Below are positions 6,188 through 32,560 of a stretch of 34,775 bases of DNA, piece after piece (the first letter of the stretch is position 1; each line of letters opens with the position of its first letter). The stretch is taken from positions 1 through 34,775 of the forward strand of contig JAFWBV010000012.1 in NCBI GenBank assembly GCA_017506895.1. Reading direction: 5' to 3'. This DNA comes from Candidatus Saccharimonadota bacterium. GTDB lineage: Bacteria > Patescibacteriota > Saccharimonadia > Saccharimonadales > Saccharimonadaceae. The notes beneath the pieces are model-generated. The model saw only the letters and a list, made by a program, of their open reading frames with translations. It had not been told where the DNA came from and searched no databases. The position numbers and the translations under genes were made by a program.

Positions 6188-6231
6188 TAAGCGGGTAGAT
6201 TGTAAATGCTTTTATGTTTGCAATTTATCAT

Positions 6232-7755: not shown

Positions 7756-7773
7756 TTTTACTCCTTTTTATCA

Positions 7774-8958
7774 TTAATCGCGCGCAAATAAATCTCGTGT
7801 ATAAATTTTTTCCTTAACATCTTCAATCTCAGGCATCATTCGGTTTGCTACAATAATCGAACAATCATTTTTGAATCTCTTTAGGTCATTAGTCACTTCA
7901 ACACCATTAAACTCTTTGTCTTTAAGCGTTGGCTCATAAATCAAAACTTTCTTTTTCTTTTCAATTAAAATTTTGATAATATCATGGACTGCCGCATCAC
8001 GAAAATTGTCTGAATCAGTTTTCATTGTAAGGCGATATATACCAATCAACTTCGGATTTTCGGCAATTATTTCATCCGCAATGAACTGCTTGCGTGTAAT
8101 ATTTGCCTGCACAATTGCCTTAATCAAATCTTGTGGCACACCCTTATAGTTCGCCAACAATTGCTTAGTATCTTTAGGTAAACAATAACCACCGTATCCA
8201 AACGAAGGGTTATTGTAATGTGTACCAATACGCGGGTCCAATGAAATGCCATTGATAATACTCTTCGGATTAATTCCCTTCACCTTTGCATATGTATCCA
8301 ACTCATTAAAATAAGCAACGCGCAGTGCCAAATAAGTATTAGCAAACAATTTAACCGCCTCAGCTTCTTTACTGTCCATAGTCAGAACTTGCACATTGTC
8401 AGCTAAAGCTGCGTCTCGCAATAATTCTGCAAATCTAACCGCTTCTTCTGAATAAGAACCTACAATGATTCGTGATGGATATAGATTATCATATAACGCT
8501 TTACCTTCACGCAAAAATTCTGGCGAAAAGAAAATATTATTTATGTTGTATTTTAGCCTTACCGCATCGACGTAACCTACCGGAATCGTAGATTTAATCA
8601 CCATAGTAGTTTTTGGATTCCCAAGCGATATCACTTTTTCAATAATATCTTCCACTGAACTAGTATTAAAAAAATGTTTATCAGAGTCATAATCTGTCGG
8701 AGTCGCAATAATCACATAATCTGCATCACGAAATGCTTCTTCCCAGTCGAGAGTCGCCTTTAGATTTAGTTTTCTCTCGCCATTAGCCGCTTCATTAAAA
8801 TATTTTTCAATATATTCATCTTGAATTGGCGAGACAAATTTATTCACCATTTTAACTTTTTCTGGGATAATGTCTAACGCGACTACTTCATTGTTTTGAG
8901 CCAAAAGCGTTGCAAGTGATAGTCCAACGTAACCAGTTCCAGCTACTGCTATTTTCAT
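7774..8958 (-). CDS. ugd: UDP-glucose 6-dehydrogenase
   Basis: 394 residues, matching short bacterial Ugd. The NAD-binding GTGYVG motif is at residues 7-12, followed by ATPTDYD and the SPEFLREGKALYDN substrate loop. The catalytic cysteine is C259 in GYGGYCLPKDTKQL. It oxidises UDP-glucose to UDP-glucuronate with two NAD+, supplying the substrate of the adjacent epimerase. UDP-mannosamine dehydrogenases share the fold, but the downstream glucuronate epimerase and the overall length favour Ugd. The gene has its own near-consensus promoter (8994-9022) and a GGAG ribosome-binding site, so it may be expressed independently of the glycosyltransferase part of the cluster. Confidence 0.93.
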   Translation of the reverse strand: MKIAVAGTGYVGLSLATLLAQNNEVVALDIIPEKVKMVNKFVSPIQDEYIEKYFNEAANGERKLNLKATLDWEEAFRDADYVIIATPTDYDSDKHFFNTSSVEDIIEKVISLGNPKTTMVIKSTIPVGYVDAVRLKYNINNIFFSPEFLREGKALYDNLYPSRIIVGSYSEEAVRFAELLRDAALADNVQVLTMDSKEAEAVKLFANTYLALRVAYFNELDTYAKVKGINPKSIINGISLDPRIGTHYNNPSFGYGGYCLPKDTKQLLANYKGVPQDLIKAIVQANITRKQFIADEIIAENPKLIGIYRLTMKTDSDNFRDAAVHDIIKILIEKKKKVLIYEPTLKDKEFNGVEVTNDLKRFKNDCSIIVANRMMPEIEDVKEKIYTRDLFARD

Positions 8959-8993
8959 TCAAAAAACTCCAAATTATTATGATAATTATATAT

Positions 8994-9022
8994 ATTATAT
9001 ATGTAATACTTTAAAACGTCAA
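8994..9022 (-). promoter_or_regulatory. Promoter of ugd
   Basis: TTGACG (9017-9022), 17 bp, TATAAT (8994-8999) on the minus strand in the 78-bp gap between the epimerase and ugd. An alternating TA stretch follows the -10. Confidence 0.75.
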
Positions 9023-9036
9023 TTAAACATAAAGAT

Positions 9037-10092
9037 TTAGCTATAAAACTCTTTATACCATTCAGCAAATTTACGTAAACCTTCGCGAAGCGAAGTATGT
9101 GGTTTAAAACCAAAATCTCTTTCTAACGCGCTAGTATCTGCATAAGTTACCGGCACATCGCCTGGCTGCATAGGCGCTAATTCCTTATGCGCCTCAAAAT
9201 CATAATCTTCTGGCAAGACCTTGGCGCGAATCAACTCTTCTTGCAAAATCTGAACAAAGTCTAATAAGTTTTCTGGATTTGAATTGCCAATATTATAAAC
9301 TTTATATGGCGCAATTGGTAAGCCATCTTCACCGTTTTGTTTTTCTGGCGCTTTCGCCATTACACGCATTACACCTTCTACGATATCATCAATATAAGTA
9401 AAGTCGCGTTTACATTTGCCAAAGTTAAAAATTTGAATCTTTTCGCCTTTGATTAACTTATTAGTAAAGCCAAAATAGGCCATGTCGGGCCGACCGGCCG
9501 GACCATAAACAGTAAAGAATCGTAATCCAGTAGAGGGGATGTTGTATAGTTTGGAGTACGCATGTGCAAGTAGCTCATTTGATTTCTTGGTCGCAGCATA
9601 TAAACTCACGGGGTTGTCGACTTTGTCATCTACTGCAAACGGGACTTTTTTATTACCACCATAAACTGATGACGATGATGCATAAACTAGATGCTCCGGC
9701 TGATAATGTCGACAAGCTTCGAGAATGTTATAAAAGCCAATAAGGTTTGACTCAATATAGGCATCTGGATGATCAATGGAATATCTTACGCCAGCTTGCG
9801 CCGCTAGGTTTACTACGATGTCTGGATGATATTCTTCAAAAAGCTTATTAACGGCTTCTTTGTCTGCTAAATTACCTCTAACAAAAATAAAGTTCTGATA
9901 CTGCTCTAAATCTTTTAGGCGATATTCTTTTAGTTTCACGTCATAATAATCGTTCACGCTATCGAAGCCAATTACCTTCGCTCGCGGGTTTTCCCCACAA
10001 ACTCGCTTCGCGAGATTTGCACCAATAAACCCAGCTGCGCCGGTAATCAAAATAGTTTTTTCATCAAAATCAATCATATTACTCATACTCAT
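9037..10092 (-). CDS. UDP-glucuronate 4-epimerase (extended SDR)
   Basis: 351 residues. NAD-binding GAAGFIG is at 18-24, the catalytic Y165-x3-K169 in SLYAATKK, SSSSVYGG before it, and the family motif LRFFTVYGPAGRPDMA plus FGKCKRDFTYIDDIVEG. These features match GAE/CapI-type enzymes that interconvert UDP-glucuronate and UDP-galacturonate. The neighbouring ugd supplies the substrate, so the polymer probably contains galacturonic or glucuronic acid. The start is uncertain: ATG codons at 10092, 10086 and 10077 are all possible, and none has a strong ribosome-binding site. A TATAAA box ends 7 nt before the first ATG, so this may be another leaderless start. Confidence 0.9.
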   Translation of the reverse strand: MSMSNMIDFDEKTILITGAAGFIGANLAKRVCGENPRAKVIGFDSVNDYYDVKLKEYRLKDLEQYQNFIFVRGNLADKEAVNKLFEEYHPDIVVNLAAQAGVRYSIDHPDAYIESNLIGFYNILEACRHYQPEHLVYASSSSVYGGNKKVPFAVDDKVDNPVSLYAATKKSNELLAHAYSKLYNIPSTGLRFFTVYGPAGRPDMAYFGFTNKLIKGEKIQIFNFGKCKRDFTYIDDIVEGVMRVMAKAPEKQNGEDGLPIAPYKVYNIGNSNPENLLDFVQILQEELIRAKVLPEDYDFEAHKELAPMQPGDVPVTYADTSALERDFGFKPHTSLREGLRKFAEWYKEFYS

Positions 10093-10173
10093 ATCTTACT
10101 TTATAGCGCTGACTTTTTCAACCCTTACCCCACAATATTAAGTTTATATCGAGACCTGATACAAAAATACCAA

Positions 10174-11631
10174 TTATTTTTTGCGCTTCATAAATCTCGA
10201 TATGATTTTTCTAAATTCAGACATTAATTTTTTACATGTTTCGAATTCAAAAATAAGCGAATTCAATAACACAATTATTAAATATACAATAATGCCCGCA
10301 ATAGCACCAAACCGCAAGCCACAAAACAAGAAGGCAGCTAGGTTTATTATGAAATATATATAATCTTTTAAATTAAGTGCATATTTCCTTAAATCTATCT
10401 CACCTATAATAAACCAGATAAAGTTCGTTATCAATGTTGCCACAGCGATAGCAATCATATTTTTAAATAGCAAATATCCTATAGTGTTTAGTAATACAGA
10501 GACTCCTATAACGCACAGCATTATTTTAAAATATTTTTTCTGCTGCTTGTTCGATTTATATAGATTAACATGTACAGTTTTTACCATTATAGCAACATAT
10601 TGTGCAGATACAAGAAAGAACAATACACTAACCGAGTCTAAGTATTTATTTAGCCATAATTCTATCACAAATTTCGCCGGAAAGGCAAACACCACTATTG
10701 CGGCTGCCAATAATAATGAATATCTTTTTACTCTTACTACTCTTTCTTTTGATTTTTGTTTGCAAAAATAATTATACATTGTAGTAGAAATTGGAGTAAT
10801 GAAAATATTTAAATAATTTTCTACACCAACCGCAAAAGAATAATATGCAAAGTTAACCATACCGAGCAGATTTTTAACAAAAAGCCTATCAATTGACGTA
10901 AAAATCACATTGCAAAAATTTCCAGTCATCAAAAATATACCAGAGCCTATATTCTCTTTTAGATAGTTTTTTTCAAATTTTATTTTTCGTTTCGGTTTGC
11001 CAAGAATTTTTCTTAATTCACATTCAATGAATACCCAATACAAGAAATATACTACTACGTAAGCAATAATATAAAATAAGTAATTGTCTGTTTTTATAAT
11101 TAATAAAAGAATTAGGTTAACAATAAAAGTCATTATCGTATGGATATTGGTATATCTAGAATACTTTTTAAATTCTCCGACGGCAACATAAAGATTCCGT
11201 ACGTAATTAGACACACCTACCGGCAAAACAACCAAAGAACACAGCAGTAATATTTGATTCCCAACAATGAGCGAAGCGCCCATCATCAGAAAACACATTA
11301 CGATCTGAAATATCTTAAATGTATCAAATTCTGTTTTCGCCGCTTTACTATCTATTGTATCAATGGTTTTCCCTCCTACTCGTAAATACATACCATCAGA
11401 ATACCCTAAATGCAAAATACCTAAATATGTTACATACAAGGTAAATAGCTTTATATTGGCATATGTATCAACGGAAAGAATTTTTGGCAGAATAAAGGCC
11501 GTAAAAAGACTGATAATAAGATTGACGACGTTTGCTATAAAAACATACACAATACCTTTTTTGATACTAGTTCCGGAAGTCTTTTTAGCGTCTTTAATAG
11601 TTGCACGCGATGCCTCCTTTTTATTATTCAT
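10174..11631 (-). CDS. Wzx-type polysaccharide flippase
   Basis: About 485 residues with 12-14 hydrophobic segments spread along the chain, as in the oligosaccharide-lipid flippase (MATE-like, polysaccharide_synt) family. Recognisable parts are the basic N-terminus followed by GIVYVFIANVVNLIISLFTA and the ILPKILSVDTYANIKLF loop typical of Wzx proteins. It should move the undecaprenyl-linked repeat unit across the membrane. I chose ATG 11631 over the longer GTG start at 11646, because that GTG lies inside the ribosome-binding site AAAGGTGAG. The gene overlaps the upstream glycosyltransferase gene by 8 nt. The region is visibly AT-richer than ugd or the epimerase, as is usual for the variable centre of capsule loci. 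Confidence 0.88.
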   Translation of the reverse strand: MNNKKEASRATIKDAKKTSGTSIKKGIVYVFIANVVNLIISLFTAFILPKILSVDTYANIKLFTLYVTYLGILHLGYSDGMYLRVGGKTIDTIDSKAAKTEFDTFKIFQIVMCFLMMGASLIVGNQILLLCSLVVLPVGVSNYVRNLYVAVGEFKKYSRYTNIHTIMTFIVNLILLLIIKTDNYLFYIIAYVVVYFLYWVFIECELRKILGKPKRKIKFEKNYLKENIGSGIFLMTGNFCNVIFTSIDRLFVKNLLGMVNFAYYSFAVGVENYLNIFITPISTTMYNYFCKQKSKERVVRVKRYSLLLAAAIVVFAFPAKFVIELWLNKYLDSVSVLFFLVSAQYVAIMVKTVHVNLYKSNKQQKKYFKIMLCVIGVSVLLNTIGYLLFKNMIAIAVATLITNFIWFIIGEIDLRKYALNLKDYIYFIINLAAFLFCGLRFGAIAGIIVYLIIVLLNSLIFEFETCKKLMSEFRKIISRFMKRKK

Positions 11632-12541
11632 TTTTTGCACTCTCACCTTTCTCTATTCTATCTAGCCAATTATAAAAACTATAGTAATCGACTATTTTTT
11701 TATCTATTTCTTTATAAGGAGCTTTCATAAATTCAGCAAGCCCCTTAAAATCATCTATTCCAACTACAAAAATGTTTTGCTTGTCGTAAAAATCATAATT
11801 CACTATATCTTTATAATCTGTTATCAACTTCTTTTTGTAGAACAATGCTTCAAGCGGTCTCAAAGTTAGTCCGCATAACTGGCTAGGAACAATATCTACT
11901 ATACATTTAGAGCTAGCTATATAGTTTAAATAGTCTATATAATCGATTCTATCCTCTTTAGAGTTCACAATATTAAAAAAACATTTTAAGTTAGCAGTTT
12001 CTGCTATTTTTTTTATTCTAGAAAGAATTTCTCCTCTGTCTTTGTCTTTTCCTATAAAAACTAGATCAAATTTATGCTTATCATTATTTAGACTTGGCAA
12101 TTTATAGTAAAATTGAGAATTATATTTTAATTTATATTTTTTTGCATCAAAACGACTATAAGTCCAGATTTCATCAAATAATCTACTATCAATATTGGTT
12201 TTATTAAGCTCCACCAAATTCCAACGCCAGAGAACGATTTTAGCTTTAGTGTTATTTCTAACAAAATGCACTATTTTGTTATAATCTCTGATATGGCTAT
12301 CAAACATTATGACGAGTCTGCATTCTTTCCTAGTTATATGTTTTTTCCAACCACCGTAAAAAATAGGGTCAACATTAACAATATTCAGTTTAACGATTAT
12401 TTTTCTGGCAATACGTAATATTAGTTTATCAGAATAAAACGTGAATACATTATCTAGCCAATCAAGAAACAAATGGCTATTACTAATTATTACAACTTCT
12501 TTCGGCTTTCTCTTACCCATAACGAAACGCGACCATTGCAT
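11624..12541 (-). CDS. Putative glycosyltransferase (GT-B-like)
   Basis: 305 residues, soluble. The N-terminal half has alternating strands and helices (KEVVIISNSHLF, VIMFDSHIRDYNKIV, KIVLWRWNLVE), and the segment FDEIWTYSRFDAKKYKLKY resembles the linker of GT-B enzymes. The second half (DLVFIGKDKDRGEIL, then CGLTLRPLEALFYKKKLITDY) carries the pattern of a nucleotide-sugar site: a loop followed by a glutamate in an EALFY helix. Its place among sugar polymer genes supports a glycosyltransferase role. Donor and acceptor are unknown. The start at 12541 has no strong ribosome-binding site; M8 at 12520 is an alternative. Confidence 0.7.
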   Translation of the reverse strand: MQWSRFVMGKRKPKEVVIISNSHLFLDWLDNVFTFYSDKLILRIARKIIVKLNIVNVDPIFYGGWKKHITRKECRLVIMFDSHIRDYNKIVHFVRNNTKAKIVLWRWNLVELNKTNIDSRLFDEIWTYSRFDAKKYKLKYNSQFYYKLPSLNNDKHKFDLVFIGKDKDRGEILSRIKKIAETANLKCFFNIVNSKEDRIDYIDYLNYIASSKCIVDIVPSQLCGLTLRPLEALFYKKKLITDYKDIVNYDFYDKQNIFVVGIDDFKGLAEFMKAPYKEIDKKIVDYYSFYNWLDRIEKGESAKNE

Positions 12542-12548
12542 CTTAACA

Positions 12549-13058
12549 TTAAGTGTTTTTTAAAACGAAGTCTTTTTTATCACTAGCGGCCAAGTTTTTA
12601 CTATAAATCACTTTGTTTTTTACCTTTCTATAGTATTCGTCTATACTCTCTATGACCTTCGCCGGCACACCAACCGCAACGCTTTCAGAAGGTATATCTT
12701 TAGTGACAACTGCTCCACACCCAATTATTACATTGTCGCCGATAGTAACTCCTGGCATTATAATAGTATTTAGCCCGACATGGACATTAGAACCAATTTT
12801 AACTCTTCCAAATTTATCAGCATTCCTTAGTTTACCATTGTTTCTCAATACCCATAAACCACCATCGTGTGTTGTGATTTTTACGCCCATAGCCAATCTA
12901 ACATTATCACCTATCTCAACTAAATATGGTTCGCTACCAAAGCTCACATTGGAATATATCTCACAATTATTACCAATTTTTACACCCATCTCGCGTACCA
13001 GTTTTTCTCTTTTTTTAAAACCGCAGAATTTATATTCTAACTTTTTAATTATATTCAT
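12549..13058 (-). CDS. Left-handed beta-helix (hexapeptide repeat) acyltransferase
   Basis: 169 residues. Hexapeptide repeats are clear in VKIGNNCEIYSNVSFGSEP, VEIGDNVRLAMGV, VKIGSNVHVGLNTIIMPGV and TIGDNVIIGCGAVVTKDIP, ending AVGVPAKVI. The TTHDGG segment supplies the probable catalytic histidine. This is the WbbJ/VatD type of maltose-, serine- or sugar-O-acetyltransferases; in this cluster it probably O-acetylates a sugar of the repeat unit. An extended -10 box (13080-13088) and a GGAG site precede its start. Family assignment is strong; the acceptor is unknown. Confidence 0.9.
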   Translation of the reverse strand: MNIIKKLEYKFCGFKKREKLVREMGVKIGNNCEIYSNVSFGSEPYLVEIGDNVRLAMGVKITTHDGGLWVLRNNGKLRNADKFGRVKIGSNVHVGLNTIIMPGVTIGDNVIIGCGAVVTKDIPSESVAVGVPAKVIESIDEYYRKVKNKVIYSKNLAASDKKDFVLKNT

Positions 13059-13079
13059 ATCTTCTCCATTATGCTATAT

Positions 13080-13088
13080 ATTATACCA
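13080..13088 (-). promoter_or_regulatory. Possible internal promoter before the acyltransferase gene
   Basis: TGGTATAAT on the minus strand directly after the stop codon of the polymerase gene, about 22 bp before the ATG at 13058. The region is very AT-rich, so chance occurrence is possible. Confidence 0.4.
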
Positions 13089-14123
13089 TCAAGTATTTAC
13101 AAAAATTATACTGTAATCAGAAAACATATTAGTCACTAATATATAACAGATGCACATTACTATAATTAGGATTGATGATAATAATCTATTTTTGGCGTTA
13201 AGCTCTTGGATTGAGTTAGGAATTATGAAACAGAAAGAATCACGAGTATAGGCAGCTATCCTACTAAACGCATTATTCTGTACAGCAAAAAACTGCATTA
13301 TTATTGTAAATAAAGATATTTTGACAATGCTTTCTTTTTCTTTGTCTCGTGAATACCTTTTTAAAATTAAATACACAATAAACAATATTATATAAAACAA
13401 TAATAGTTTAATCCCCCCTCCAGAAAATACTTTGTCAGCATATCGATCATAAAAATCGTTCATTAATAAATTGGATATCTGTGAACTAAACATTAAACAC
13501 AAGATAGTAATAACCGTTAGAAATACATTCTTATATTTAGATCGCGGTATATTCACAATCGGATAAACCAATAGCAAAACTAAGGCGGTCTTGTGGAATA
13601 GTGAGGCTACAATTATAGCCAATAAGTATTTGAAGAATTTTTTATTATCAACTAAATAAAAACAAGCCAAAAATATTGATATAGCAATAGCCTGACGTAA
13701 GACATAAAACTCTATATGAAAAGTACCTATCGTAATAAACATTACGATACTTAATAAATAGTTCTTAGAATAACGTCTTATAAAAAGGAATGGACCGATA
13801 AGAGTAATAAGTGAAACTATACATAGCATAATGTGCGAATCGTTAGTAACCAATCTAATCCCATATAGGAGAATCTTAAATAATACTTCCCACCTATTTT
13901 CAAACAGTTTTTCGATATGATTAATATCGATATTATTAAAGAAATTCTCGTATGTGATCATATCAGAATATGGCTTTCTTATGCATAAAAATATCAATAA
14001 TAAAACAAACGAAATAATTAGAAATATTTCATTTCGCCACTTTAGACGCGGAATTGTGGCAAGAATAATCCACACAAAAATAATCATAACTATAAGCAAT
14101 ATGACATATTCTGATGAATTCAT
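13089..14123 (-). CDS. EpsG/Wzy-like polysaccharide polymerase
   Basis: 344 residues, almost wholly hydrophobic, with about 10 predicted membrane segments. The opening layout (hydrophobic segment, RLKWRNEIFLIISFVLLLIFLCIRKPYSDMITYENFF) matches the EpsG family, in which a short loop with an arginine and a D-x2-Y element follows TM2. FVLRQAIAISIFLACF and the HKTALVLLLVYP motif are also typical of EpsG-like proteins. Its job would be to join lipid-linked repeat units outside the membrane. Polymerases diverge greatly, so the call rests on topology, these motifs and position. The gene overlaps the upstream GT4 gene by 4 nt (ATGA), showing translational coupling. Confidence 0.8.
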   Translation of the reverse strand: MNSSEYVILLIVMIIFVWIILATIPRLKWRNEIFLIISFVLLLIFLCIRKPYSDMITYENFFNNIDINHIEKLFENRWEVLFKILLYGIRLVTNDSHIMLCIVSLITLIGPFLFIRRYSKNYLLSIVMFITIGTFHIEFYVLRQAIAISIFLACFYLVDNKKFFKYLLAIIVASLFHKTALVLLLVYPIVNIPRSKYKNVFLTVITILCLMFSSQISNLLMNDFYDRYADKVFSGGGIKLLLFYIILFIVYLILKRYSRDKEKESIVKISLFTIIMQFFAVQNNAFSRIAAYTRDSFCFIIPNSIQELNAKNRLLSSILIIVMCICYILVTNMFSDYSIIFVNT

Positions 14124-15238
14124 TTACTTTTTTCCTTCGTTTGATAAGCGTTTTTTTCTACAAAATCTAGCCATTCGTTATAGATTTTTTCTGGATTCAA
14201 TTTTTTTCTTAATTTAATGGCATTGTTAGAAATCTTATTACTAAACTTAGCGTCTTCAATTATTAGACTCAATCCTTGTACCATCTCGTCAACGGCGTTC
14301 TTTTTAACTAGTATTCCATTCTCCATATTATTGATTAGCTCCCTAGCTCCACCACCATCACAATCCGTGACCACACATGGTATACCAATACACATAGCTT
14401 CAATTAAAGAGTTCGACATCCCCTCATAATTAGAAGCCATCAAAAAACATGCAGCATTCGATATGCGCTCAGGGACATCTTTTACATATCCCATAAAAGA
14501 GACTTTATCCGTAAGATTATATTCTGCTACCAATTTTTTTAAACTCTCTTCTTCGCATCCTTGCCCATAAATCTCCAAAGAATAATCTGGATGTTTTTTT
14601 TGAAACTTATAAAATGATTCAATAATCATTGGGTAGTTTTTTTGTTTTCTGAGTCTACCCACAGCCACTATTCTGTTTTCAACTTTAACTCTTTTTGAAA
14701 CAATTATATCTGTATTAATTGCATTTGGAATTACAATTCTATTTCTTATATTTCTATAATAATTAGAAATATCTTTTGTCTGTATCACCAATCCATCACA
14801 TCTTTTAACCGCAAATTTCATTAAAAACCTATTAATCATATTATAGGTTGTAGGGTCATTTCTATCCGAAATAATTATCTTCCCTTTGATATATCTTCTT
14901 AATCTTGTCAGGAGAAACGCGTTTAGCGGTAACATTGTTACGTAACAAGGTACGCTAGTATTATTTTTTACATATTTCTTTAGGCCTATCCACTCAATCA
15001 TAATATTTTTAATTCTGTTAGCCCGTTTCTTCTCATCTAACAAATTAATTCTATTAATGCCTTTAGTCAATTCATATGTATCATTTTTATTAGATAGCGT
15101 CACTACATCTACGTCAAAGTTTTTATTATAAAAATAATTAGCTAAATTACATGTTACTCTTTCAGAACCTCCACCAGAAAGGCTACTAATGAAAAAAGTA
15201 ATCCTATTCCTTCTGGCAACTTGATTATTCTTTATCAT
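14120..15238 (-). CDS. GT4-family glycosyltransferase
   Basis: 372 residues. The GT-B N-terminal domain opens with RITFFISSLSGGGSERV, the glycine-rich acceptor loop of GT4 enzymes. The C-terminal domain carries VAVGRLRKQKN, VSFMGYVKDVP and the E-x7-E nucleotide-sugar motif (E272 and E280 in SNYEGMSNSLIEAM), then GIPCVVTDCDGGGAREL. This is a retaining transferase adding a sugar to the lipid-linked repeat. It overlaps the polymerase gene by 4 nt and lies 4 nt after the ATP-grasp gene. The specific sugar is unknown. Confidence 0.9.
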   Translation of the reverse strand: MIKNNQVARRNRITFFISSLSGGGSERVTCNLANYFYNKNFDVDVVTLSNKNDTYELTKGINRINLLDEKKRANRIKNIMIEWIGLKKYVKNNTSVPCYVTMLPLNAFLLTRLRRYIKGKIIISDRNDPTTYNMINRFLMKFAVKRCDGLVIQTKDISNYYRNIRNRIVIPNAINTDIIVSKRVKVENRIVAVGRLRKQKNYPMIIESFYKFQKKHPDYSLEIYGQGCEEESLKKLVAEYNLTDKVSFMGYVKDVPERISNAACFLMASNYEGMSNSLIEAMCIGIPCVVTDCDGGGARELINNMENGILVKKNAVDEMVQGLSLIIEDAKFSNKISNNAIKLRKKLNPEKIYNEWLDFVEKNAYQTKEKSK

Positions 15239-15242
15239 ATAC

Positions 15243-16154
15243 TCATCTCCACCCTATTTTAAATCTTTTCCCAATTACAAAATCAAAACTATCCGGCTTA
15301 AAAACCATATATCCACCAGCATTAAAAAATGTTAGCTCTCCAAAAATAATCTTACCGTTTACGTTATAAAAATCCACCCTAACATGCGGAAAGCTTTTCG
15401 AAAGTTTTTCCGCTAACACAATCATTTCATCGATATTATTACATAATTCCTGTTTTGCAATAGAGATATCGCAGTAATCCACCCCAACACCTTTTAACCA
15501 TTTCTTATCACGGCTATAAAAACTCATTTCTCCATTATTATGATTTTTAGCATAACCAGACCTCTTGTAAAAATATTCAACTTTACCATTAAAACAAAAG
15601 AATTTATAATCATCTAAATCTTTGTTTTCTTGCTCTAAATATTCTTCGACTATTACACGATGCTGAAGAAAGTCATAAGGCCATTCCCTACTGACAGATT
15701 TACCTGGCTTCATTCTTAACCATTTTTTTATTGTCTCTTCAATTCTTTTTTCATCATAGTTTCTATTATTCTTATCAACGATAAGTACAGCATTACTTCC
15801 ACCACCAATCGTGTCTTTAACTACGAATCTGTCGGGAAGTTTATGTAAGTCAACATCTTCCGGCTTTTCATATACAGCGTACAGTCGATTCAGTATTTTT
15901 GAATAACCCCTTTTTTCAAGATAATTCCTTACTTCGTACTTATCAACACATTGCTTCATCACAGGGTCACGATATTCTAGCTTATATTTTTGTAGTTTTT
16001 CTGTAAACCGTTGCGGATTTTTAAGATTAAGTTTTCGTCCTGTCTTGATACGATATTGAATTTTTACCATCGTTTTATCTGGTACCCAACTTAATAAACT
16101 CAAAATCCTCAATCTAAGTTCTCGACTTTTTAGTATTTTTTTATAATCCACCAT
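15243..16154 (-). CDS. TupA-like ATP-grasp protein of polysaccharide biosynthesis
   Basis: 303 residues. The opening LNLKNPQRFTEKLQKYKLEYRDPVMKQCVDKYEVRNYL is the signature of TupA-like ATP-grasp proteins, often annotated as glycosyltransferase in capsule loci. The ATP-binding loop is VVKDTIGGGSNAVLIVDK. Acid residues that would bind Mg-ATP are in VIVEEYLEQ, YKFFCFNGKVE, VRVDFYNVNGK and FGELTFFNAGG. TupA is known for joining glutamate units in teichuronopeptides; the related proteins of capsule clusters are thought to form amide links, for example between an amino acid and a uronic acid. That would suit a polymer made with UDP-GlcA or UDP-GalA. Overlap of 1 nt with the upstream gene. Family strong; reaction inferred. 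Confidence 0.85.
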   Translation of the reverse strand: MVDYKKILKSRELRLRILSLLSWVPDKTMVKIQYRIKTGRKLNLKNPQRFTEKLQKYKLEYRDPVMKQCVDKYEVRNYLEKRGYSKILNRLYAVYEKPEDVDLHKLPDRFVVKDTIGGGSNAVLIVDKNNRNYDEKRIEETIKKWLRMKPGKSVSREWPYDFLQHRVIVEEYLEQENKDLDDYKFFCFNGKVEYFYKRSGYAKNHNNGEMSFYSRDKKWLKGVGVDYCDISIAKQELCNNIDEMIVLAEKLSKSFPHVRVDFYNVNGKIIFGELTFFNAGGYMVFKPDSFDFVIGKRFKIGWR

Positions 16155-17320
16155 TACTCCACCCCCATCACTTCAAGCATCCGCTCATCAATAATCTCAA
16201 TCGTGAATTTTTCCAAACACATTTGATACGATTTATCACCCATCTTCTGTAAATCAGACCTATGCTCTATCATGTAAATTATTTTATCGGCAAGATCTTT
16301 AGCGCGCTTAGCTTTTACGAAATAGCCATTTTCTCCTTCTGCAATAGTTTCACGGCAACCCGGCGTATTAGTTGTAAGAATTGGCCTCCCCATCGCCATC
16401 GCTTCGAGCAATGTACGAGGAATCCCTTCACGATAATACGTTGGCAATACAAATACGCTACACTCGCCAACATATTTTTCGACATGATTTGTTTCGGGAA
16501 TATATTTAATTACTCCTTCATCTATAAAAGGCTTTAATTCCTCCATATTAATTGCGTTTTTGTTCTTATCAATTGCGCCAATGTAGGCAAATTCTGCATC
16601 TGGGTATTTTTCCTTAACAATTTTCGCGGCTTTAAAATATTCCATTACGCCCTTTTCTTTTATAACGCGCGAAACCATCAAAAAACTAACTTTATCCTTA
16701 GGTAAGTTGTTACGAGAAAACTTCTTTAAGTTCACACCCGAGCCATTCACGAGCTCACATTGACTGCGTTTAACTAATTCTCTAGCCACAAATTCATTTA
16801 TATCGTCACGGTTTTGAAAGATTACTTTTTTGTTATACTTCAAAGCATATTTATATAAATGACTACCAACGAATCTTAAAATATGCATCTTCAATGTATC
16901 AGAAGAAAAAATCATACCCAGCCCACAAATCAATGAATAAATCTCTTTTACTCCGGCACGATTTGCGGCAATGGAGCCAAAAATTACTGGCTTAATTGTA
17001 AATGAAAAGACTTTGTCTGGTGCTTCTTCCTTTATAATTTTTTTGAGATTACGGTAATACGAAAACGCACCAAATACTGATAAAGAATTCTTATTTAAAT
17101 TCACTAAACGCACTTTTATGCCATTTTGCTTAAAAAAACTCTTGTCCACATTTTCCGGAACCACTACGACAACTTCATAACCTTTTTTCTTGATATCACA
17201 AAGCAAATCACCGCGAAAATTCACCACTGCTTTAGTTTTAGGGCCAACCATCAAAAACTTCTTTGCTTTTGCCGCAAGATTAGCATTATCTATAGTTTCT
17301 CTCGCATTATTTTTTGGCAT
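16154..17320 (-). CDS. GT4-family glycosyltransferase, first gene of the polysaccharide operon
   Basis: 388 residues. GT-B fold: KKFLMVGPKTKAVVNFRGDL at residues 20-39, VFSFTIKPVIFGSIAANRAGV typical of the PglA/WcaA-like group, SFLMVSRVIKEKGVMEY at the start of the C-terminal domain, and the E-x7-E motif (E298, E306 in REGIPRTLLEAM) followed by GRPILTTNTPGCRE. PglA-like enzymes add the second sugar to an undecaprenyl-diphospho-sugar, so this may be the first committed transferase here. The operon promoter is at 17354-17382, and a GTGGAG ribosome-binding site and a small hairpin precede the ATG. Exact substrate unknown. Confidence 0.9.
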   Translation of the reverse strand: MPKNNARETIDNANLAAKAKKFLMVGPKTKAVVNFRGDLLCDIKKKGYEVVVVVPENVDKSFFKQNGIKVRLVNLNKNSLSVFGAFSYYRNLKKIIKEEAPDKVFSFTIKPVIFGSIAANRAGVKEIYSLICGLGMIFSSDTLKMHILRFVGSHLYKYALKYNKKVIFQNRDDINEFVARELVKRSQCELVNGSGVNLKKFSRNNLPKDKVSFLMVSRVIKEKGVMEYFKAAKIVKEKYPDAEFAYIGAIDKNKNAINMEELKPFIDEGVIKYIPETNHVEKYVGECSVFVLPTYYREGIPRTLLEAMAMGRPILTTNTPGCRETIAEGENGYFVKAKRAKDLADKIIYMIEHRSDLQKMGDKSYQMCLEKFTIEIIDERMLEVMGVE

Positions 17321-17330
17321 ATTACTCCAC

Positions 17331-17344
17331 GGTATAAAAATACC
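17331..17344 (-). promoter_or_regulatory. Small hairpin in the leader of the polysaccharide operon
   Basis: GGTAT-TTTT-ATACC, a perfect 5-bp stem, just upstream of the GTGGAG ribosome-binding site of the first glycosyltransferase gene. Confidence 0.4.
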
Positions 17345-17353
17345 ACTATATAT

Positions 17354-17382
17354 AATATATATGTTATCCCCCCAAAAGTCAA
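17354..17382 (-). promoter_or_regulatory. Promoter of the polysaccharide operon
   Basis: TTGACT (17377-17382), 17 bp, TATATT (17354-17359) on the minus strand. The spacer contains a G6 tract. A longer imperfect stem at 17403-17435 (6-bp and 4-bp parts) between the adhesin stop and this promoter may act as a weak terminator. Confidence 0.7.
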
Positions 17383-17452
17383 TTATGCTTATACCAAAAT
17401 TCAGCCGGCAACGACCCCACTAATCGTCACCGACTAAAATTTTATTTAGTAT

Positions 17453-20400
17453 TTACTTCTTACGCCTGATTGCCGCAGTTACTAGAATTGGCACTCCGAT
17501 CAAAGTCATCATCACCACAGCTAAGCCTGCCGCCAATGTGTTTTCGCAAGTCACATTACCACCACCACGCACACCAGTAAATCTACCTGTCTCCGGTGCT
17601 GGTGGAATGATATCACCACCACATCCACCTTCCGCACATGGATCGTCTAATTCATGATAATTTATGAATAATGTTCCATATTCGTCGTTATACATTTCTA
17701 ATTGTTCATATTCATCCGATTCCAAAATCTCTTCTGCAGTATAAACAATCACTTCTGCATACTCATCCGCATACGGCAATCCTTCCCACACAAAACCCCA
17801 GATATCTCCAGTCACATAATCTTCATCTTCTTCGTCGATGATATAAGCATCATTCATCGTCAAATCAATCGTATCGATTATCTCGCCGTTTGCAAGTAGG
17901 TTAATCGTCAGTTTTTCTGGACGTTCGCCATCCTTATCATGTGCATCTTCCCAGATTTTATCCACGTAATACATAATTCTGTCTACTTCATATTCGTTCG
18001 TAATTTCAAATACAATCTCATCGTCCTTTTCAACCTTCTTTTCTACATCATTATCACCTGAGACAGTTAATTCAAAGTTCTCTACATCGGCATTACCTTC
18101 TGTCACTGTATAATTACCAGTTGGAATTCTGCCTTCTACTTTACAGGTAATTAACTCGTCAGAAATTGCACAATCATCGCCTGCCACTAGAACTATCGTG
18201 CCATTCTCGCCAAAGTCTTCTGGACCTTTAACAGTAAACTCCAAATCAGCTAATACTTCTGCCTTTAAGCCCTTCACAGTCTTTTCAATGGTTAATGATT
18301 TCGCTAAGCTGCGTTTGTTCACTACTGTCATAGTTAACGTTTCTGCGTCCCATACATATTTATCACTGCCGCTCTTTGTAAACTCACAAGTCTTAGTATA
18401 CGTATTCACTAGAGTAGTCGCATCAGTATTAGCTAGCACACTACTACAAATCACTGAAACCGTCGCCGAACCTTCCACCAAATCATAACCATCCAAAGTA
18501 GCTTTTTCACTAATCGTATACTTAAGATTATCTTCTTTATTAGTAGACGAGATGTAGACATTCTTTAATGTCATACCTTCGGCATCCGTCTGTCGATCAA
18601 CAGAACCTTCAGCCGCAAACGTCACACCAGCCATCGGTTTGTAATCTTCATCAACTTTCTTAATATAGAATTTAGTTGCACCTTCGTAGACAATCTCATC
18701 TTTCGCTTTCTTCCAAGTATTAGTGACCGTATTCCCTTCTTCCATCTTGGTCCAACTACCAGTAATTGCACCGTCGTTCGAACGAATAACAATTACACTC
18801 TCACCTTGACCAAATGCCGTTTCGCCAATCATTGATTCACGTACTGAATATTCAATCGGTTCACCATCTTCATTTGCATAAAGATTAGTAAACGTATAAG
18901 TCCACTCATTATTTTGGCCAGCCATAATTTCAGCTCTATCAATTACGTCGCCGTTTGCTAATAGTTCCACCGAGACTGAACCAGGACGCACTAGTTCATT
19001 ACCTTCACCCGCCCAAACCTTTTGTGCAACAATATCATCATGCATTGCAGGCTCATGGGTATTTGTGAAAGTAAACACTCCGTCTTTCATTACGCCATTA
19101 TCAGAACTATATTCATCGCCAAGATTCTCTTCTATAGCCGTATATTCAATTTCTTCAGCATCTTCATTCATGAGTGGCAATTCAGTCCATTCATGTTCCC
19201 AATCATCACCTTCTAATTCAACCGGTTCACCATAAGCTTTTCCATCTGCAAGTAGTGTAATAGCCAAAGTATCTGGACGAAGACCATCACGATCATCATC
19301 ATCGTTCCAAATTTTCTTAACTTTATAAGAAGCAGTATTAACCGAATTATAAGTATTCTTAAACTTAAACTCTGCAGTTTCACCCACACCAACTGCCACC
19401 TTTACTCTCTTACTTGTTGGTTCGCTAGTATAAGTAAAGTTAGTAATATCTGCGTCTTTTTCAGTAACCGTGTACTCACCAACTGGAATTAAGACATTAT
19501 CGCCGTCAATTATACAAGTCAGCTTGCTGCCAGAAATTGTACATTCTCTGTCACCATTTCCGATAGTCGTTTCGGTAAATCCATCCGGACCAGTAATGGT
19601 AAACTTAATTTGGCTCTTTTCTCCAAAGGCTTTTGCAGAAATGCCTTCAAAAGTCTTCTCGATTTTTAATTCATCCGCAAGTGCTTGGTTTGTCACAAGC
19701 AAAGTCGAATTATTTTTTTGCCAAACATAGCCATCCACCGCAGTTCTTACTGCAAACCCAAAGCTCTTTGTGTAAGTATTAGTTAAACTCTTTTCATCGA
19801 CAGAAAGCTCCAAATTAGTAGTAGCCGTCAAAACTTCCGTACCCGTAACTATATCATAGAATTCTGGCGCACTAGTTTCTGTAATATTAAAGGTATAACT
19901 ATTTTCTGGTTTTTCAGTAGCTCCCGAAAATTCCACTTTTGCTGTACCTTCGTTCCCAGTCGTATAAGTTTTATTGCCAACTGTAAAAGTAACTCCAGCA
20001 AGCGGCGCGTTATCTTGATCAACCTTTTTAATATTGAATTCTCCCACGCCAGTATAAACTGTCTCGGCTGGTGTCCAAGTGTTAGTGATTTCGACACCGT
20101 TTTTGGTAGCAACCCATTTACCTTCCAATGCATTGTCCTTATAAACATATAAAGTATTATCGCCATTTAATGCACTACCGGCAATATCCTTTTCTTTTAC
20201 CGAATAGTGTATTTCTTCACCGTTCTCATACATATAATCTTCAAATTCACCCGTCCATTCTGCATAGTTTTCGCCTCTCAAAGTCACAGTCTTCACAGTA
20301 TCATTCTTATCGTTCGACACTTCCACGGTCACAAAACCAGGCGTTGATGATGGCAAAGTTCCAGCCGACGTATCCCATTTTTTCTTAATGGTTAATTGTG

Positions 20401-22321
20401 TTTTTGCTGGCGTATGTGCATTAGTAATTACATTCCCTATACCAACCGTGCTAGAGTAACTATTGTCGTTAAAATCTCTACAGTTCAAAGTTGTTCCGCT
20501 ACTAGTACACGTCGCCTCGCCTAAAGTGTATCTTATCGCCGAACCATTTCGATTCTTTGGCAAACCGTTAAATTCAAAACTTTGATTTGTTGCACCGGTT
20601 ACCTTCTCATGAGCGACATAATTATCGCCATCTTTCACCACTACATACAAATTAGTATAATTCTTGCGCAAACCATCACGATCATTATCATCTTGCCATA
20701 CTTTAGATGCACTCAAATCTACAGTCTCATAAGTGTTCTTAATTACCACATCGATATGATCAGCATGATTTTCACTAATTGTAAACTGATTACCGGTATA
20801 AGTAGTTGTATAATGTTCAAACGCAATCGGGTTATTGCTACCAGCAGTTTCCCCAAGTTCCGTCAAAGTATAATCGCCAATTGGGAAAGGCTCCATGATG
20901 CGATGTGTTTTACCTGCTTCCACCGAATAATATGTTTCCTTTAGCCCCTGTGGGTGTTCGATCTTAAAATCAAACATACACTCACCTTCTGCACACTGTT
21001 GCCCTTCAATTTCCTTCTTTACGTTCACGAAAAATGGCTTCACGTATGGTACAGGGAAATAGCCAGTTACATTATCTCCATAAGTTATAGATGCTGATTT
21101 ATTCAATCTATGAAAACCTTCCGCAGTTTCATGTACACTATCTTCTAGCATAGCTTCGTTTGCTGATACCCGGTAAGTTGTAGACGCCTCGTACATATTA
21201 GTAGTACTATTAAACGTAAACACCGGATCCCAGTCTAGATCCACAGCATGAGTTGCATTATCTACATAAACACCCTCACCCATTACATCGTGCACATGTG
21301 AATTACCCACTAGAGAACTAATCTCACCAGCAATATCATCAAAAATATCTTCCAAATCATCACCACTTGAAGTATGACTCTTGCCTTGAGTAGCCATACT
21401 ATTCAATACGCTATTTCCAAGCGTACCAGCGTTATAAGCAATCGTATGTAGTGTCGCCCCGGTTGCCTTAAAGAAATTCGCCTCAGCAATTGCTGAATTA
21501 CCGTGGTCATAATAAGCATTATATCGTCTACCATCAATCCAAACATCATCATAGTCATCCCACATTTCGCGACCATCTGGTTCCCAAGTATACCTACTGC
21601 CATCGCCTACCCTTTCGTTATAATCAAATTTATCTGCCGAAGACATTACCTTAAATTGTCTAGAACCAGTGCCAATCATAGTGTGGCCTGTTTCAAAATC
21701 GCTACCACTTACGTTTTTAATATCATAGCTATAGCTTGGCACACCATCTGAAAGCAGAACTATACTTTTGTGCGTTGCTGTAGAACCAGCCAGAAGCTGC
21801 GCTGCTGCATGAATTGCCCCCTGAGTAAAAGTGCCACCACCGTTAGCAGCAATTCCCGAAGTCCCGTTAATCGCATTATTAACTACGCTAAACGAATCTG
21901 AAAAGCCATTCGTCTTATTTCTCACATCGGTCCCAAAAGAAAGCACCGCCACTCGGTTTACTCTATTTCCTTCAGGCAATAGCTCTTCAGCCAAAGATGT
22001 CGCCGCTGCCTTTGCGTTTGAAAGCATCGTACTGCTCATGCTGTTCGAACGATCAATTATAACGACCGTATCGGAAGTCACAGTTACTGCTGGCGCCTCA
22101 ATTTTTAGCGTCACTTCCCATTCATTTGCATAGCCCGGCACCGCTCGCGCAGTCTTGTGTAGTCTAACGCCATCTTCCAAAACCGTTGGGCCGTTTGGGT
22201 CATTTTTTACCGTAGCACTATCGCCCTCAATTGCCAAAACTGGCACGATACTGCCGCCAATATTTGAGCCCACCAGTAGAAATGCAAAAACTGCACACAC
22301 TATTTTTTTAAGTTTTTTCAC
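17453..22321 (-). CDS. Giant surface adhesin: vWA domain, Cna-B-like repeats, sortase-like anchor
   Basis: 1622 residues. Signal peptide 1-30. A vWA domain at about 84-335 has the MIDAS residues D90-x-S92-x-S94 (IIDRSNSMSS), T164 (GGGTFTQG) and D192 (LLSDG). After it come beta-sandwich domains of four kinds in regular order: a D-type domain (about 430-530), then A-B-C-D (535-990), A-B-C-D again (998-1445) and a last A (1451-1556). A and B are Cna-B-like (KVWQDDNDRDG, KIWNDDDDRDG, KIWEDAHDKDG), C is SpaA-like (NIKKVDQDNAPLAGVTF, YIKKVDEDYKPMAGVTF), D opens IEKTFEG or IEKTVKG and ends YTVTE. The Lys near each start and Glu near each end suggest isopeptide bonds. The C-terminus has APETG (1575-1579), a TM segment (1595-1618) and RRKK, a variant sortase signal. 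GTG start behind AAGGAG. Probable pilus-tip-like or host-binding adhesin. Confidence 0.9.
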   Translation of the reverse strand: MKKLKKIVCAVFAFLLVGSNIGGSIVPVLAIEGDSATVKNDPNGPTVLEDGVRLHKTARAVPGYANEWEVTLKIEAPAVTVTSDTVVIIDRSNSMSSTMLSNAKAAATSLAEELLPEGNRVNRVAVLSFGTDVRNKTNGFSDSFSVVNNAINGTSGIAANGGGTFTQGAIHAAAQLLAGSTATHKSIVLLSDGVPSYSYDIKNVSGSDFETGHTMIGTGSRQFKVMSSADKFDYNERVGDGSRYTWEPDGREMWDDYDDVWIDGRRYNAYYDHGNSAIAEANFFKATGATLHTIAYNAGTLGNSVLNSMATQGKSHTSSGDDLEDIFDDIAGEISSLVGNSHVHDVMGEGVYVDNATHAVDLDWDPVFTFNSTTNMYEASTTYRVSANEAMLEDSVHETAEGFHRLNKSASITYGDNVTGYFPVPYVKPFFVNVKKEIEGQQCAEGECMFDFKIEHPQGLKETYYSVEAGKTHRIMEPFPIGDYTLTELGETAGSNNPIAFEHYTTTYTGNQFTISENHADHIDVVIKNTYETVDLSASKVWQDDNDRDGLRKNYTNLYVVVKDGDNYVAHEKVTGATNQSFEFNGLPKNRNGSAIRYTLGEATCTSSGTTLNCRDFNDNSYSSTVGIGNVITNAHTPAKTQLTIKKKWDTSAGTLPSSTPGFVTVEVSNDKNDTVKTVTLRGENYAEWTGEFEDYMYENGEEIHYSVKEKDIAGSALNGDNTLYVYKDNALEGKWVATKNGVEITNTWTPAETVYTGVGEFNIKKVDQDNAPLAGVTFTVGNKTYTTGNEGTAKVEFSGATEKPENSYTFNITETSAPEFYDIVTGTEVLTATTNLELSVDEKSLTNTYTKSFGFAVRTAVDGYVWQKNNSTLLVTNQALADELKIEKTFEGISAKAFGEKSQIKFTITGPDGFTETTIGNGDRECTISGSKLTCIIDGDNVLIPVGEYTVTEKDADITNFTYTSEPTSKRVKVAVGVGETAEFKFKNTYNSVNTASYKVKKIWNDDDDRDGLRPDTLAITLLADGKAYGEPVELEGDDWEHEWTELPLMNEDAEEIEYTAIEENLGDEYSSDNGVMKDGVFTFTNTHEPAMHDDIVAQKVWAGEGNELVRPGSVSVELLANGDVIDRAEIMAGQNNEWTYTFTNLYANEDGEPIEYSVRESMIGETAFGQGESVIVIRSNDGAITGSWTKMEEGNTVTNTWKKAKDEIVYEGATKFYIKKVDEDYKPMAGVTFAAEGSVDRQTDAEGMTLKNVYISSTNKEDNLKYTISEKATLDGYDLVEGSATVSVICSSVLANTDATTLVNTYTKTCEFTKSGSDKYVWDAETLTMTVVNKRSLAKSLTIEKTVKGLKAEVLADLEFTVKGPEDFGENGTIVLVAGDDCAISDELITCKVEGRIPTGNYTVTEGNADVENFELTVSGDNDVEKKVEKDDEIVFEITNEYEVDRIMYYVDKIWEDAHDKDGERPEKLTINLLANGEIIDTIDLTMNDAYIIDEEDEDYVTGDIWGFVWEGLPYADEYAEVIVYTAEEILESDEYEQLEMYNDEYGTLFINYHELDDPCAEGGCGGDIIPPAPETGRFTGVRGGGNVTCENTLAAGLAVVMMTLIGVPILVTAAIRRKK

Positions 22322-22350
22322 CTTTTACTCCTTCACTTTTATTTGCCGCC

Positions 22351-22379
22351 ATTATATCACGGCTGTCAAACAGGGGCAA
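22351..22379 (-). promoter_or_regulatory. Proximal promoter (P2) of the adhesin gene
   Basis: TTGCCC (22374-22379), 17 bp, TATAAT (22351-22356) on the minus strand, with TGA before the -10. The leader would be about 22-25 nt and contains the GAAGGAG site. Confidence 0.75.
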
Positions 22380-22400
22380 CGATAAGCACTTTCCAAAAAA

Positions 22401-22427
22401 CACAAAAAAATAACCCCGAAGGGTTAT
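22401..22427 (-). terminator. Terminator after rpsH, between ribosomal operon and adhesin
   Basis: ATAACCC (22410-22416) and GGGTTAT (22421-22427) form a perfect 7-bp stem with a tetraloop (TTCG in minus-strand sense), followed by a run of T on the minus strand. It ends the L3-to-S8 transcript. Confidence 0.88.
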
Positions 22428-22433
22428 CTTTTT

Positions 22434-22462
22434 ATTATATCACAGATATAATATTTTGTCAA
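22434..22462 (-). promoter_or_regulatory. Perfect-consensus promoter (P1) just upstream of the terminator
   Basis: TTGACA (22457-22462), 17 bp ending TGTGA, TATAAT (22434-22439) on the minus strand. The predicted start of transcription is at the very base of the terminator stem, so its RNA would begin with that hairpin. Whether it is productive cannot be told from sequence. Confidence 0.65.
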
Positions 22463-22474
22463 ATATATATCTGT
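22442..22474 (-). repeat. Inverted repeat directly after the S8 stop codon
   Basis: ACAGATATA (22442-22450) pairs with TATATCTGT (22466-22474), and inside it TATTT (452-456) pairs with AAATA (461-465) around TGTC, with one unpaired A. The 14-bp stem overlaps the -35 box of P1; it could protect the rpsH mRNA 3' end or be an operator. Confidence 0.5.
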
Positions 22475-22875
22475 TACCAAACTTTCACCAAGATTTCACC
22501 ACCAAGACGATTTTTCTTTGCTTCACGTCCGGTCATCAAACCTTTTGAAGTCGATACGATCACCATACCACGTCCAGATTTAATCGTTGGTAACTCATCC
22601 GCGGATGAATATACTCTACGACCTGGCTTTGATACTTTGGTAATCTCGTTAATCTTAGCATTAGCACCCGGCTCGTTAATAACAACATGAAGCATACCAC
22701 GTGGAGTTCCATCCACCACTTCAAAATTTGCTACATAACCGTTTTTTGCTAATACTTCAACTAAACCAACTTTTAATTTGGAAGTCGGCACTAATATTTC
22801 GTTCTTGCCAACTATCACAGCATTACGAATTCGCGTGATAAGATCGGCAATTTGATCAGTAGATTGTATTGACAT
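22474..22875 (-). CDS. rpsH: 30S ribosomal protein S8 (uS8)
   Basis: 133 residues, the normal length. Start TDQIADLITRIRNA is the classic S8 N-terminus; the C-terminal signature GMVIVSTSKGLMTGREAKKNRLGGEILVKVW contains the conserved STSKG rRNA-binding loop. It is the last gene of the L3-to-S8 unit; an inverted repeat and a terminator follow where rplF would normally come. In E. coli S8 represses the spc operon by binding at the L5 gene; whether that applies here is unknown. Confidence 0.97.
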   Translation of the reverse strand: MSIQSTDQIADLITRIRNAVIVGKNEILVPTSKLKVGLVEVLAKNGYVANFEVVDGTPRGMLHVVINEPGANAKINEITKVSKPGRRVYSSADELPTIKSGRGMVIVSTSKGLMTGREAKKNRLGGEILVKVW

Positions 22876-31522: not shown

Positions 31523-32560
31523 ATGAATATATGGCAAAAATTACCTAAACCTTTTCTCATTCTGGCGCCCATGGAAGGCGTTACGGATATTATTTTTCGT
31601 CAAGTCATCGCTCGTGCTGGTCGTCCAGATTTATTTTATACAGAATTCACCAACGTATCTAGCTATGCTTCCGAAAAAGGCCGCGCAAATGCTCTAGAAA
31701 GATTCCAAATCGCTCCTACCGATTCCCCTATTATTGCCCAAATATGGGGCAAAAATCCTGAACATTTTTCGGAAGTTTCATCCGCGCTTTCATCGCTAGG
31801 GTTTTCTGGAATTGATCTTAATTTTGGTTGTCCAGACAAGCATGTCAATCAAGCCGGCGGCGGCGCTGCCATGATTAAAACTCCCGAGCTAGCCGCAGAA
31901 TGTTTTAGAAACACCGTCAAATCTACCACTCTTCCCGTATCTATCAAAACCCGTCTCGGTTGGAGCAAAGTCGAAGAATACCAAACCTGGCTTCCCACAC
32001 TTTTACAAGAACACCCCACAGCCCTAACTGTTCATCTTCGTACCAAAAAAGAAATGAGCAAAGTCCCCGCCCATCACGAACTTATACCCGACATCATTAA
32101 GCTACGTGACAAAATCAGCTCAGAGACTAAACTCATCATAAACGGTGACATTAGAGATCGTGCTCACGCTATGGAACTCTATGCAAAATACCCAGAAATT
32201 GACGGTTTTATGATTGGCCGTGGCGTATTCGCTAATCCCTACTGTTTCACCGACCACACTCCTTCGCGCGAAGAACTCTTAGAGCTTCTAAAAATGCACC
32301 TAGACTTATACGAAGAACACATGAATGGCTATTTGAGAAACATTTGCGACAACGGGAGCAAGCTAGCGAGCGAGCCCTGTGACGACAGGCGCGAGCGAAG
32401 CGGTTTCGAAAATAGCCATTCAGGTGCTCCATCATATGAACCCCTAAAACATTTTTTCAAAATCTACATTAATAATTTTCCTGGCGCCAAAGAAATCCGA
32501 GCCGAGCTAATGGAAACCCACTCTGTCGCCGAAGCTCGAAACATTATCGACAAGCTCTAA
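31523..32560 (+). CDS. dusB: tRNA-dihydrouridine synthase, with in-frame inserted element
   Basis: 345 residues. FMN-binding barrel of the Dus family: APMEGVTD (15-22), the catalytic cysteine C103 in NFGCPDKHV, K142 in VSIKTRLGW, H171 in TVHLRTKKE, NGD (207-209) and the phosphate loop IGRGVFANPY (231-240). It reduces uridine in the D-arm of tRNA using NADPH. The C-terminal helical domain (ELLELLKMHLDLYEEH ... YEPLKHFFKIYINNFPGAKEIRAELME) is interrupted at residues 267-300 by a Cys-, Ser- and Arg-containing stretch encoded by a palindromic element (see separate entry). The frame stays open, and the domain continues after the insert. DusB rather than DusA or DusC is the best guess. Confidence 0.93.
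   Translation: MNIWQKLPKPFLILAPMEGVTDIIFRQVIARAGRPDLFYTEFTNVSSYASEKGRANALERFQIAPTDSPIIAQIWGKNPEHFSEVSSALSSLGFSGIDLNFGCPDKHVNQAGGGAAMIKTPELAAECFRNTVKSTTLPVSIKTRLGWSKVEEYQTWLPTLLQEHPTALTVHLRTKKEMSKVPAHHELIPDIIKLRDKISSETKLIINGDIRDRAHAMELYAKYPEIDGFMIGRGVFANPYCFTDHTPSREELLELLKMHLDLYEEHMNGYLRNICDNGSKLASEPCDDRRERSGFENSHSGAPSYEPLKHFFKIYINNFPGAKEIRAELMETHSVAEARNIIDKL
32323..32421 (+). mobile_element. In-frame palindromic insert in dusB
   Basis: 19-bp terminal inverted repeats (32323-32341 and 32403-32421) match at 17 of 19 positions, including 12 contiguous outer bases. The whole is 99 bp, a multiple of three, so the frame is kept. The interior is GC-richer than the gene, with GCGAGC repeats and a short stem CTGT-GACG-ACAG. 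It inserts 33 codons into a C-terminal linker. It resembles in form the Rickettsia palindromic elements; identity with any known family is not claimed. Confidence 0.6.

Follow-up and report, generated by a model that had tools for sequence, protein, structure and literature searches.

Insert in the dusB-like gene

The window, which is the whole stretch of 34,775 nucleotides analysed here, carries on its forward strand a dusB-like gene at positions 31523 to 32560, encoding a tRNA-dihydrouridine synthase of the Dus family. The open reading frame of 345 amino acids remains open across an insert that preserves the reading frame, and the protein matches the Dus-family profile PF01207 clearly (E 1.6e-47). 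The score against the DusB equivalog model was 143.5 bits, which is below the cut-off of 293.3. This indicates that the assignment to dusB made in an earlier note on this sequence holds at the level of the Dus family, while the narrower assignment to DusB falls below its threshold.

The whole insert in dusB spans positions 32315 to 32429. It contains an inverted repeat (32315–32341 and 32403–32429) with 27 nucleotides per arm, 85% complementarity and a spacer of 61 nucleotides. Within this repeat, the 19-bp ends at 32323–32341 and 32403–32421 are paired at 17 of 19 positions, where the exception is a 2×2 G.A internal loop. The energy of the RNA fold of the insert is −48.5 kcal/mol, compared to a mean of −30.5 kcal/mol for shuffled sequences (z = −5.9), and the insert is the sole long GC-rich coding palindrome of such a kind in the window. 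The inverted repeat, the stable fold and the uninterrupted frame together indicate that the 99-bp frame-keeping insert with inverted ends, as described in the earlier note, is real.

The left arm of the insert, GAACACATGAATGGCTATTT, lies at 32315–32334 and is locus-specific. It is followed at 32335–32409 by the element core (GAGAAAC...GTTTCGA), which is the repeated part, and whose boundaries were taken from near-identical cores at different loci. Folding places the 5' side of an inner terminal stem with the G.A internal loop (GAGAAAC) at 32335–32341 and its 3' side (GTTTCGA) at 32403–32409. Between the two sides, folding and a covariance model give hairpin A, TTGCGACAACGGGAGCAA, at 32344–32361 and hairpin B, GCGAGCGAGCCCTGTGACGACAGGCGCGAGCGAAGC, at 32366–32401, where short GC stems are parted by tandem G.A mismatches. 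The right arm, AAATAGCCATTCAGGTGCTC, lies at 32410–32429; all of these features are on the forward strand.

In the predicted Dus protein of the window, the sequence across the insert includes DNGSKLASEPCDD. Residues 270–301 have a pLDDT of <50 in the AlphaFold model, where the insert is predicted to be a disordered loop between the C-terminal helices 249–267 and 306–309.

At 4077–22321 of the window, surface polysaccharide genes that occupy about 18 kb, together with an adhesin-like open reading frame of 1622 amino acids (17453–22321), split a normally compact ribosomal operon between the rplF-like gene (3472–4008) and the rpsH-like gene (22474–22875); the names of the genes in this region (3472–22875) were given by inspection of the open reading frames.

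Repeated core and its distribution in the genus

The core is GC-rich and has a length of about 75–80 nucleotides; in its fold, a short terminal stem bears two G.A-rich hairpins. In the window genome, nine copies were found by DNA search, namely the window copy and eight more, and about 16 were found using a covariance model for which 20 copies had been aligned. The eight further copies lie in obgE (two in one gene), ychF, pcrA/uvrD, mnmA, ileS and argS, and one lies beside pnp, where the copy in argS is truncated; the host genes were named by NCBIfam, and pnp by inspection. The core shows covariation, with 6 of the 13 predicted pairs changed on both sides.

Matches to the covariance model were found in 109 of the 118 genomes of the genus, with up to 38 matches per genome; the number is 38 in G108 and zero in G033. 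The genus is a Ca. Nanosyncoccus-like group of Saccharibacteria from the ruminant gut, which includes Candidatus Nanosyncoccus alces and many MAGs; since nearly all the genomes are MAGs, one genome stands for one species. Outside the genus, only two weak matches (E about 1e-5) were obtained among about 285 genomes (287 drawn across the phylum). The further copies in the window genome and in the genus agree with the inserted palindromic element that had been suspected from the window alone.

The copies lie in open frames, mostly within conserved genes, in 73 of 82 cases, and they occur in all six reading phases and in both orientations. The 82–87 copies evaluated here are partly from the same genes in several species, so that their independence is incomplete. 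The bias towards open frames is as expected if selection removes frame-breaking inserts. A repeated palindromic element is thus present in frame within several unrelated conserved genes, which corresponds to a protein-coding palindromic element in the broad sense. At one locus on a contig of 4333 b (L016, G009:C1), ychF lies at the left, a different gene lies at the right, and the element lies at the join; this is either a misassembly at the repeat or a recombination between two copies.

Among the named dusB orthologues, 26 of 78 are occupied and 52 of 78 are without any insert at the site, and the occupied orthologues exceed the empty ones in length by 30–34 amino acids. The 33 residues in question are therefore missing from most homologues, in line with the earlier proposal of an insertion into an otherwise normal enzyme. 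Of the 27 genus loci that were parsed, only those of G003, G006 and G062 have an insert of the window type at the same position; in G013 and G024, which are divergent genomes, the linkers are longer and their sequence is different.

The stable fold and the covariation in the core would be accounted for if the insert had a function in DusB, at the level of RNA or protein, and were kept by selection, for instance as a regulatory hairpin or an added domain. However, such a function is very improbable, because most orthologues have no insert, the same core occurs in many unrelated genes in both orientations and six reading phases, the insert is predicted to be disordered, and a search of four loci against Rfam (E ≤ 1) gave no match except an unrelated tRNA.

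On a tree of Dus proteins from which the insert had been left out, the occupied states require about 13 changes, at least four of which are forced by well-supported branches. Therefore, inserts have been gained or lost many times at this spot in dusB. The orientation of the core can also change, since reading of the sequences of the sister species with loci L195 and L215 gave the same core at the same dusB site in opposite orientation. In two dusB inserts (L215 and L194), the loop of hairpin B contains a second small hairpin, and two longer model matches of 117 nucleotides (G122:C7:38237-38353 and G117:C9:13747-13863) may be of the same nested type.

Inserts with an AT-rich core that is apparently unrelated and follows the same plan were found at the dusB site in L202, L205, L209, L217 and L231. 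At the ileS site, cores that likewise look unrelated to that of the window and follow the same plan were observed in L343, L345, L351, L353–L355 and L359; apart from the one AT-rich family, the unrelated cores are GC-rich. A single insertion process seems to serve several families of core. The inserts with other cores at these two sites have host-specific arms and a GA/CCGA-like junction.

Outer arms and occupied and empty sites

The copies that were folded have a common plan, which consists of a long outer stem, a 2×2 G.A loop, a short stem, hairpin A and hairpin B. The ends of the core show little variation between copies. The sequence of the outer stem is unlike at every locus, and its arms are self-complementary. 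For 87 copies, the score for pairing with the own flank had a median of 16 compared to 6 when the flanks were exchanged between copies, where the 99th percentile of the null was 10. The arms have a median length of 24 nucleotides and range from about 15 to 30 nucleotides. Near-identical cores can carry unrelated arms: the cores of L138 and L139 are identical at 81 of 81 nucleotides and those of L006 and L007 at 80 of 81, and in both pairs the identity ends near the start of the unrelated, self-paired arms. In such near-identical cores at different sites, the two arms of a copy are complementary to each other for about 20–29 nucleotides. In the arms of 82 copies, a weak target signature was found, being A-rich at −15 to −18 and T-rich at −6 to −11 outside the core, so that the distance between the two stretches is roughly one helical turn. 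In 200 kb of the window genome, hairpins of any kind with arms of 13–14 nucleotides or more were too few to set it apart from two genomes of other genera.

The origin of the arms can be read from a rarA-like gene that is occupied in the genome of L191 and empty in the window genome. The Dus protein of L191 is 97% identical to that of the window, and the flanks of the rarA site are 96% and 92% identical. The empty site reads GAAGGTATTGCTATCAATT-TTTCTATTAC, and the occupied site reads GAAGGTATTGCTATCAATT-core-AATTTGATAGCAATACCTTC-ATTAC. The left arm is identical to the empty site, and the right arm repeats it in inverted form with one additional T; the insert has 93 nucleotides (31 amino acids) and is in frame. 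A TTC that is also present at the empty site gives a possible overlap of 3 nucleotides at the point of return, where the copied sequence may run back into the host. No palindrome was found at the empty site. The comparison, which concerns two closely related genomes, fits the pattern of a template-switch hairpin, in which an inverted copy of adjacent DNA is followed by a return to the original template.

The comparisons of occupied and empty sites indicate that one of the two arms belongs to the host and that the second is a new inverted copy of it, so that the inverted ends are not the termini of an element. The 19-bp ends, which had been taken as part of the element, turn out to be mostly host flank and its inverted copy; a search with these ends would find nothing because they differ at every site. 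If the element were a conventional MITE or a Rickettsia-type palindromic element, its own inverted ends would be recognised by a transposase in trans. The size, the in-frame insertion, and the conserved core with short terminal complementarity (e.g., TTCGGGG/CCCCGAA) are consistent with this explanation. However, the outer arms are site-specific and match the local host, the rarA pair, as the one site studied in detail, has no direct target duplication and so lacks this mark of a MITE, and a search for Y1_Tnp found no such transposase in 39 of 40 genus genomes. Arms owned by the element are strongly disfavoured by these sequence comparisons, and the explanation as a whole is unlikely.

Short palindromes are also present at sites without a core, namely L236 in dusB, L316 and L328 in ileS, and, in the window genome (G000), the site of L387. 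These palindromes look like scars of lost elements or target dyads. A short palindrome without a core was also noted at L364, near 11535–11624 in the window genome. Pre-existing dyads would be the targets if a hairpin- or cruciform-seeking recombinase put the core in their centre and quasi-palindrome correction later perfected the arms, and the YPAL elements have been reported to insert at or beside dyads (PMC2229807). Such a process is doubtful as the main source of the arms, because the empty rarA site is free of a dyad and one entire arm is new, coding DNA is not expected to hold many perfect 20-bp palindromes, and the core-less palindromes can equally be read as scars of lost cores. Insertion into existing dyads, or decay, apparently also occurs, as the core-less palindromic sites suggest.

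The side from which the arm is copied was evaluated at further loci by host-arm scores, which rest on variable linkers. In mnmA, the left arm was scored as host in six of seven inserts and the right arm in none, and the left arm contains a conserved KDVFLR-type motif. At the dusB site, where the test used a frame-aware removal of the inserts, the right arm was scored as host in 10 of 19 informative inserts and the left arm in 3, with 6 ties; the three inserts with a left host arm count against the insertion mode proposed below. The source side therefore varies by site, since the mnmA inserts score left and the dusB inserts mostly right. In ileS, the arms are longer than the linker of the host, for which reason the score names neither side.

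For the window copy alone, the host-arm score was +1.2, and neither side was called. In the sister pair of L208 (occupied) and L262 (empty), which has a support of 100/99, the right arm is host sequence. Taken with the dusB scores, this suggests that the right arm of the window copy is most likely original host dusB sequence and that the left arm most likely arose anew by inverted copying of the right flank. The left arm of the window has one mismatch, CACATG, compared to the perfect left arm of L191, CACCTG; this difference would be one recent change in the copied arm of the window.

Insertion mode and comparison with known systems

The sequence comparison gives the core and an inverted flank as one insert, a variable source side, an inversion of the core and paired arms. 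We consider, with a probability of about 60%, that the element is a genus-specific non-autonomous mobile hairpin that is inserted with fold-back (template-switch) copying of 15–30 nucleotides of the flank. A strand with the core would join the target in the course of replication or repair, and the terminal stem of the core would fold back and prime synthesis on the adjacent strand. After 15–30 nucleotides of flank had been copied, a short match would let synthesis resume on the original template, and the outcome would be a single in-frame insert of the core and the inverted flank. Later fold-back copying between the arms would keep them complementary and could flip the core, and selection would purge out-of-frame and stop-containing inserts, such that those in tolerated disordered loops remain. 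Template switching is known to create hairpins, homogenise their arms and invert the spacer (PMC8794818, PMC8604942); the polymerase step at the present sites is one that we infer from sequence.

Since template switching alone leaves the route of the core to a new site unexplained, an unseen enzyme may act in addition. The weak target preference and the fairly constant core ends give a hint of a recombinase, and an enzyme with a taste for certain targets would be compatible with the weak A-tract/T-tract preference of the arms.

Reverse transcriptase genes (RVT_1) are present in 24 of 40 genus genomes. The reverse transcriptases of the genus are common and have about 370–490 amino acids. In a target-primed retro-insertion, reverse transcription of the core RNA would start at a nick, and the resulting cDNA would self-prime and copy the flank, which yields exactly the observed order of host, core and inverted flank. 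However, no RVT_1 match was found in seven copy-rich genomes, namely the window genome (G000), G003, G004, G018, G025, G026 and G060, each of which has 13–23 copies, and the presence of a reverse transcriptase showed no link to the copy number when the lists were compared by hand. Retro-insertion is accordingly improbable.

Returning to fold-back copying, a broader mode of transposition can be put forward only tentatively, where a structured hairpin core needs no dedicated transposase for its spread, fold-back synthesis at the target gives each copy a host-derived outer stem, and the process is shared by several unrelated cores.

The element is present in most species of the genus, and the loops of dusB, mnmA, ileS and obgE are hit repeatedly. 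The insertion of small bacterial elements usually leaves a direct target duplication or none, and, to our knowledge, the ends of the small bacterial elements described so far belong to the elements themselves. Each insertion described here carries an inverted copy of one flank, and therefore the scar records how the strand was copied. In this CPR lineage with reduced genomes, fold-back synthesis would thus have left a dense natural record, which is also a record of in-frame selfish DNA that reshapes essential proteins. The expectation that no such family had been described in CPR bacteria is borne out in the open-access literature, where none was found for Saccharibacteria or CPR, although this is not proof of absence; nor was a description found there of inverted flank duplication as an insertion mode. 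The element is of a known kind, a protein-coding palindromic element in the broad sense, and its insertion mode is possibly new.

REP/REPIN sequences are short GC-rich palindromes with many copies, which are mostly intergenic and are mobilised by a RAYT (Y1) transposase. The present element resembles them in being short, GC-rich, palindromic and present in many copies; in contrast, it lies mostly in genes, and Y1 transposases are missing in 39 of 40 genomes.

The Rickettsia palindromic elements (RPE), as well as the Wolbachia palindromic elements, are palindromic repeats of about 100 nucleotides that are tolerated in frame in conserved bacterial genes and form several families (PMC2229807, PMC10969869). 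The earlier comparison with the coding palindromic elements of Rickettsia is upheld for this CPR bacterium, as the element is palindromic and in frame, several conserved genes are hit, and orthologues of relatives are empty. However, the ends of RPE are 12 bp terminal repeats of the element, for which the target duplication is unknown (PMC2229807), and these ends lose identity over time (PMC6649704), whereas the outer stem of the Saccharibacteria element is host-derived and site-specific. In the strict sense of an RPE, terminal inverted repeats encoded by the element form the outer stem; the present copies do not have such repeats.

Locus-specific perfect inverted repeats of up to 142 bp per arm are present in the coding genes of nematomorph mitochondria, and template switching has been proposed for their upkeep (PMC6649704). 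These coding palindromes share the site-specific arms with the present element, although they are mitochondrial and have no reported shared mobile core, whereas the Saccharibacteria element has a transposed core. The same difference applies to template-switch hairpins, which are sporadic mutations without a transposed core, although in these, too, one event makes the stem by an inverted copy of the neighbouring sequence, the arms change in concert, and the loops invert (PMC8794818, PMC8604942). The byps of Magnusiomyces mitochondria, in the account given in PMC6649704, are mobile translational bypassing palindromic elements that interrupt protein genes. The palindromic interruption of protein genes is common to both; however, the byps are untranslated, whereas the Saccharibacteria copies keep the frame and are free of stops in the 73 of 82 cases given above.
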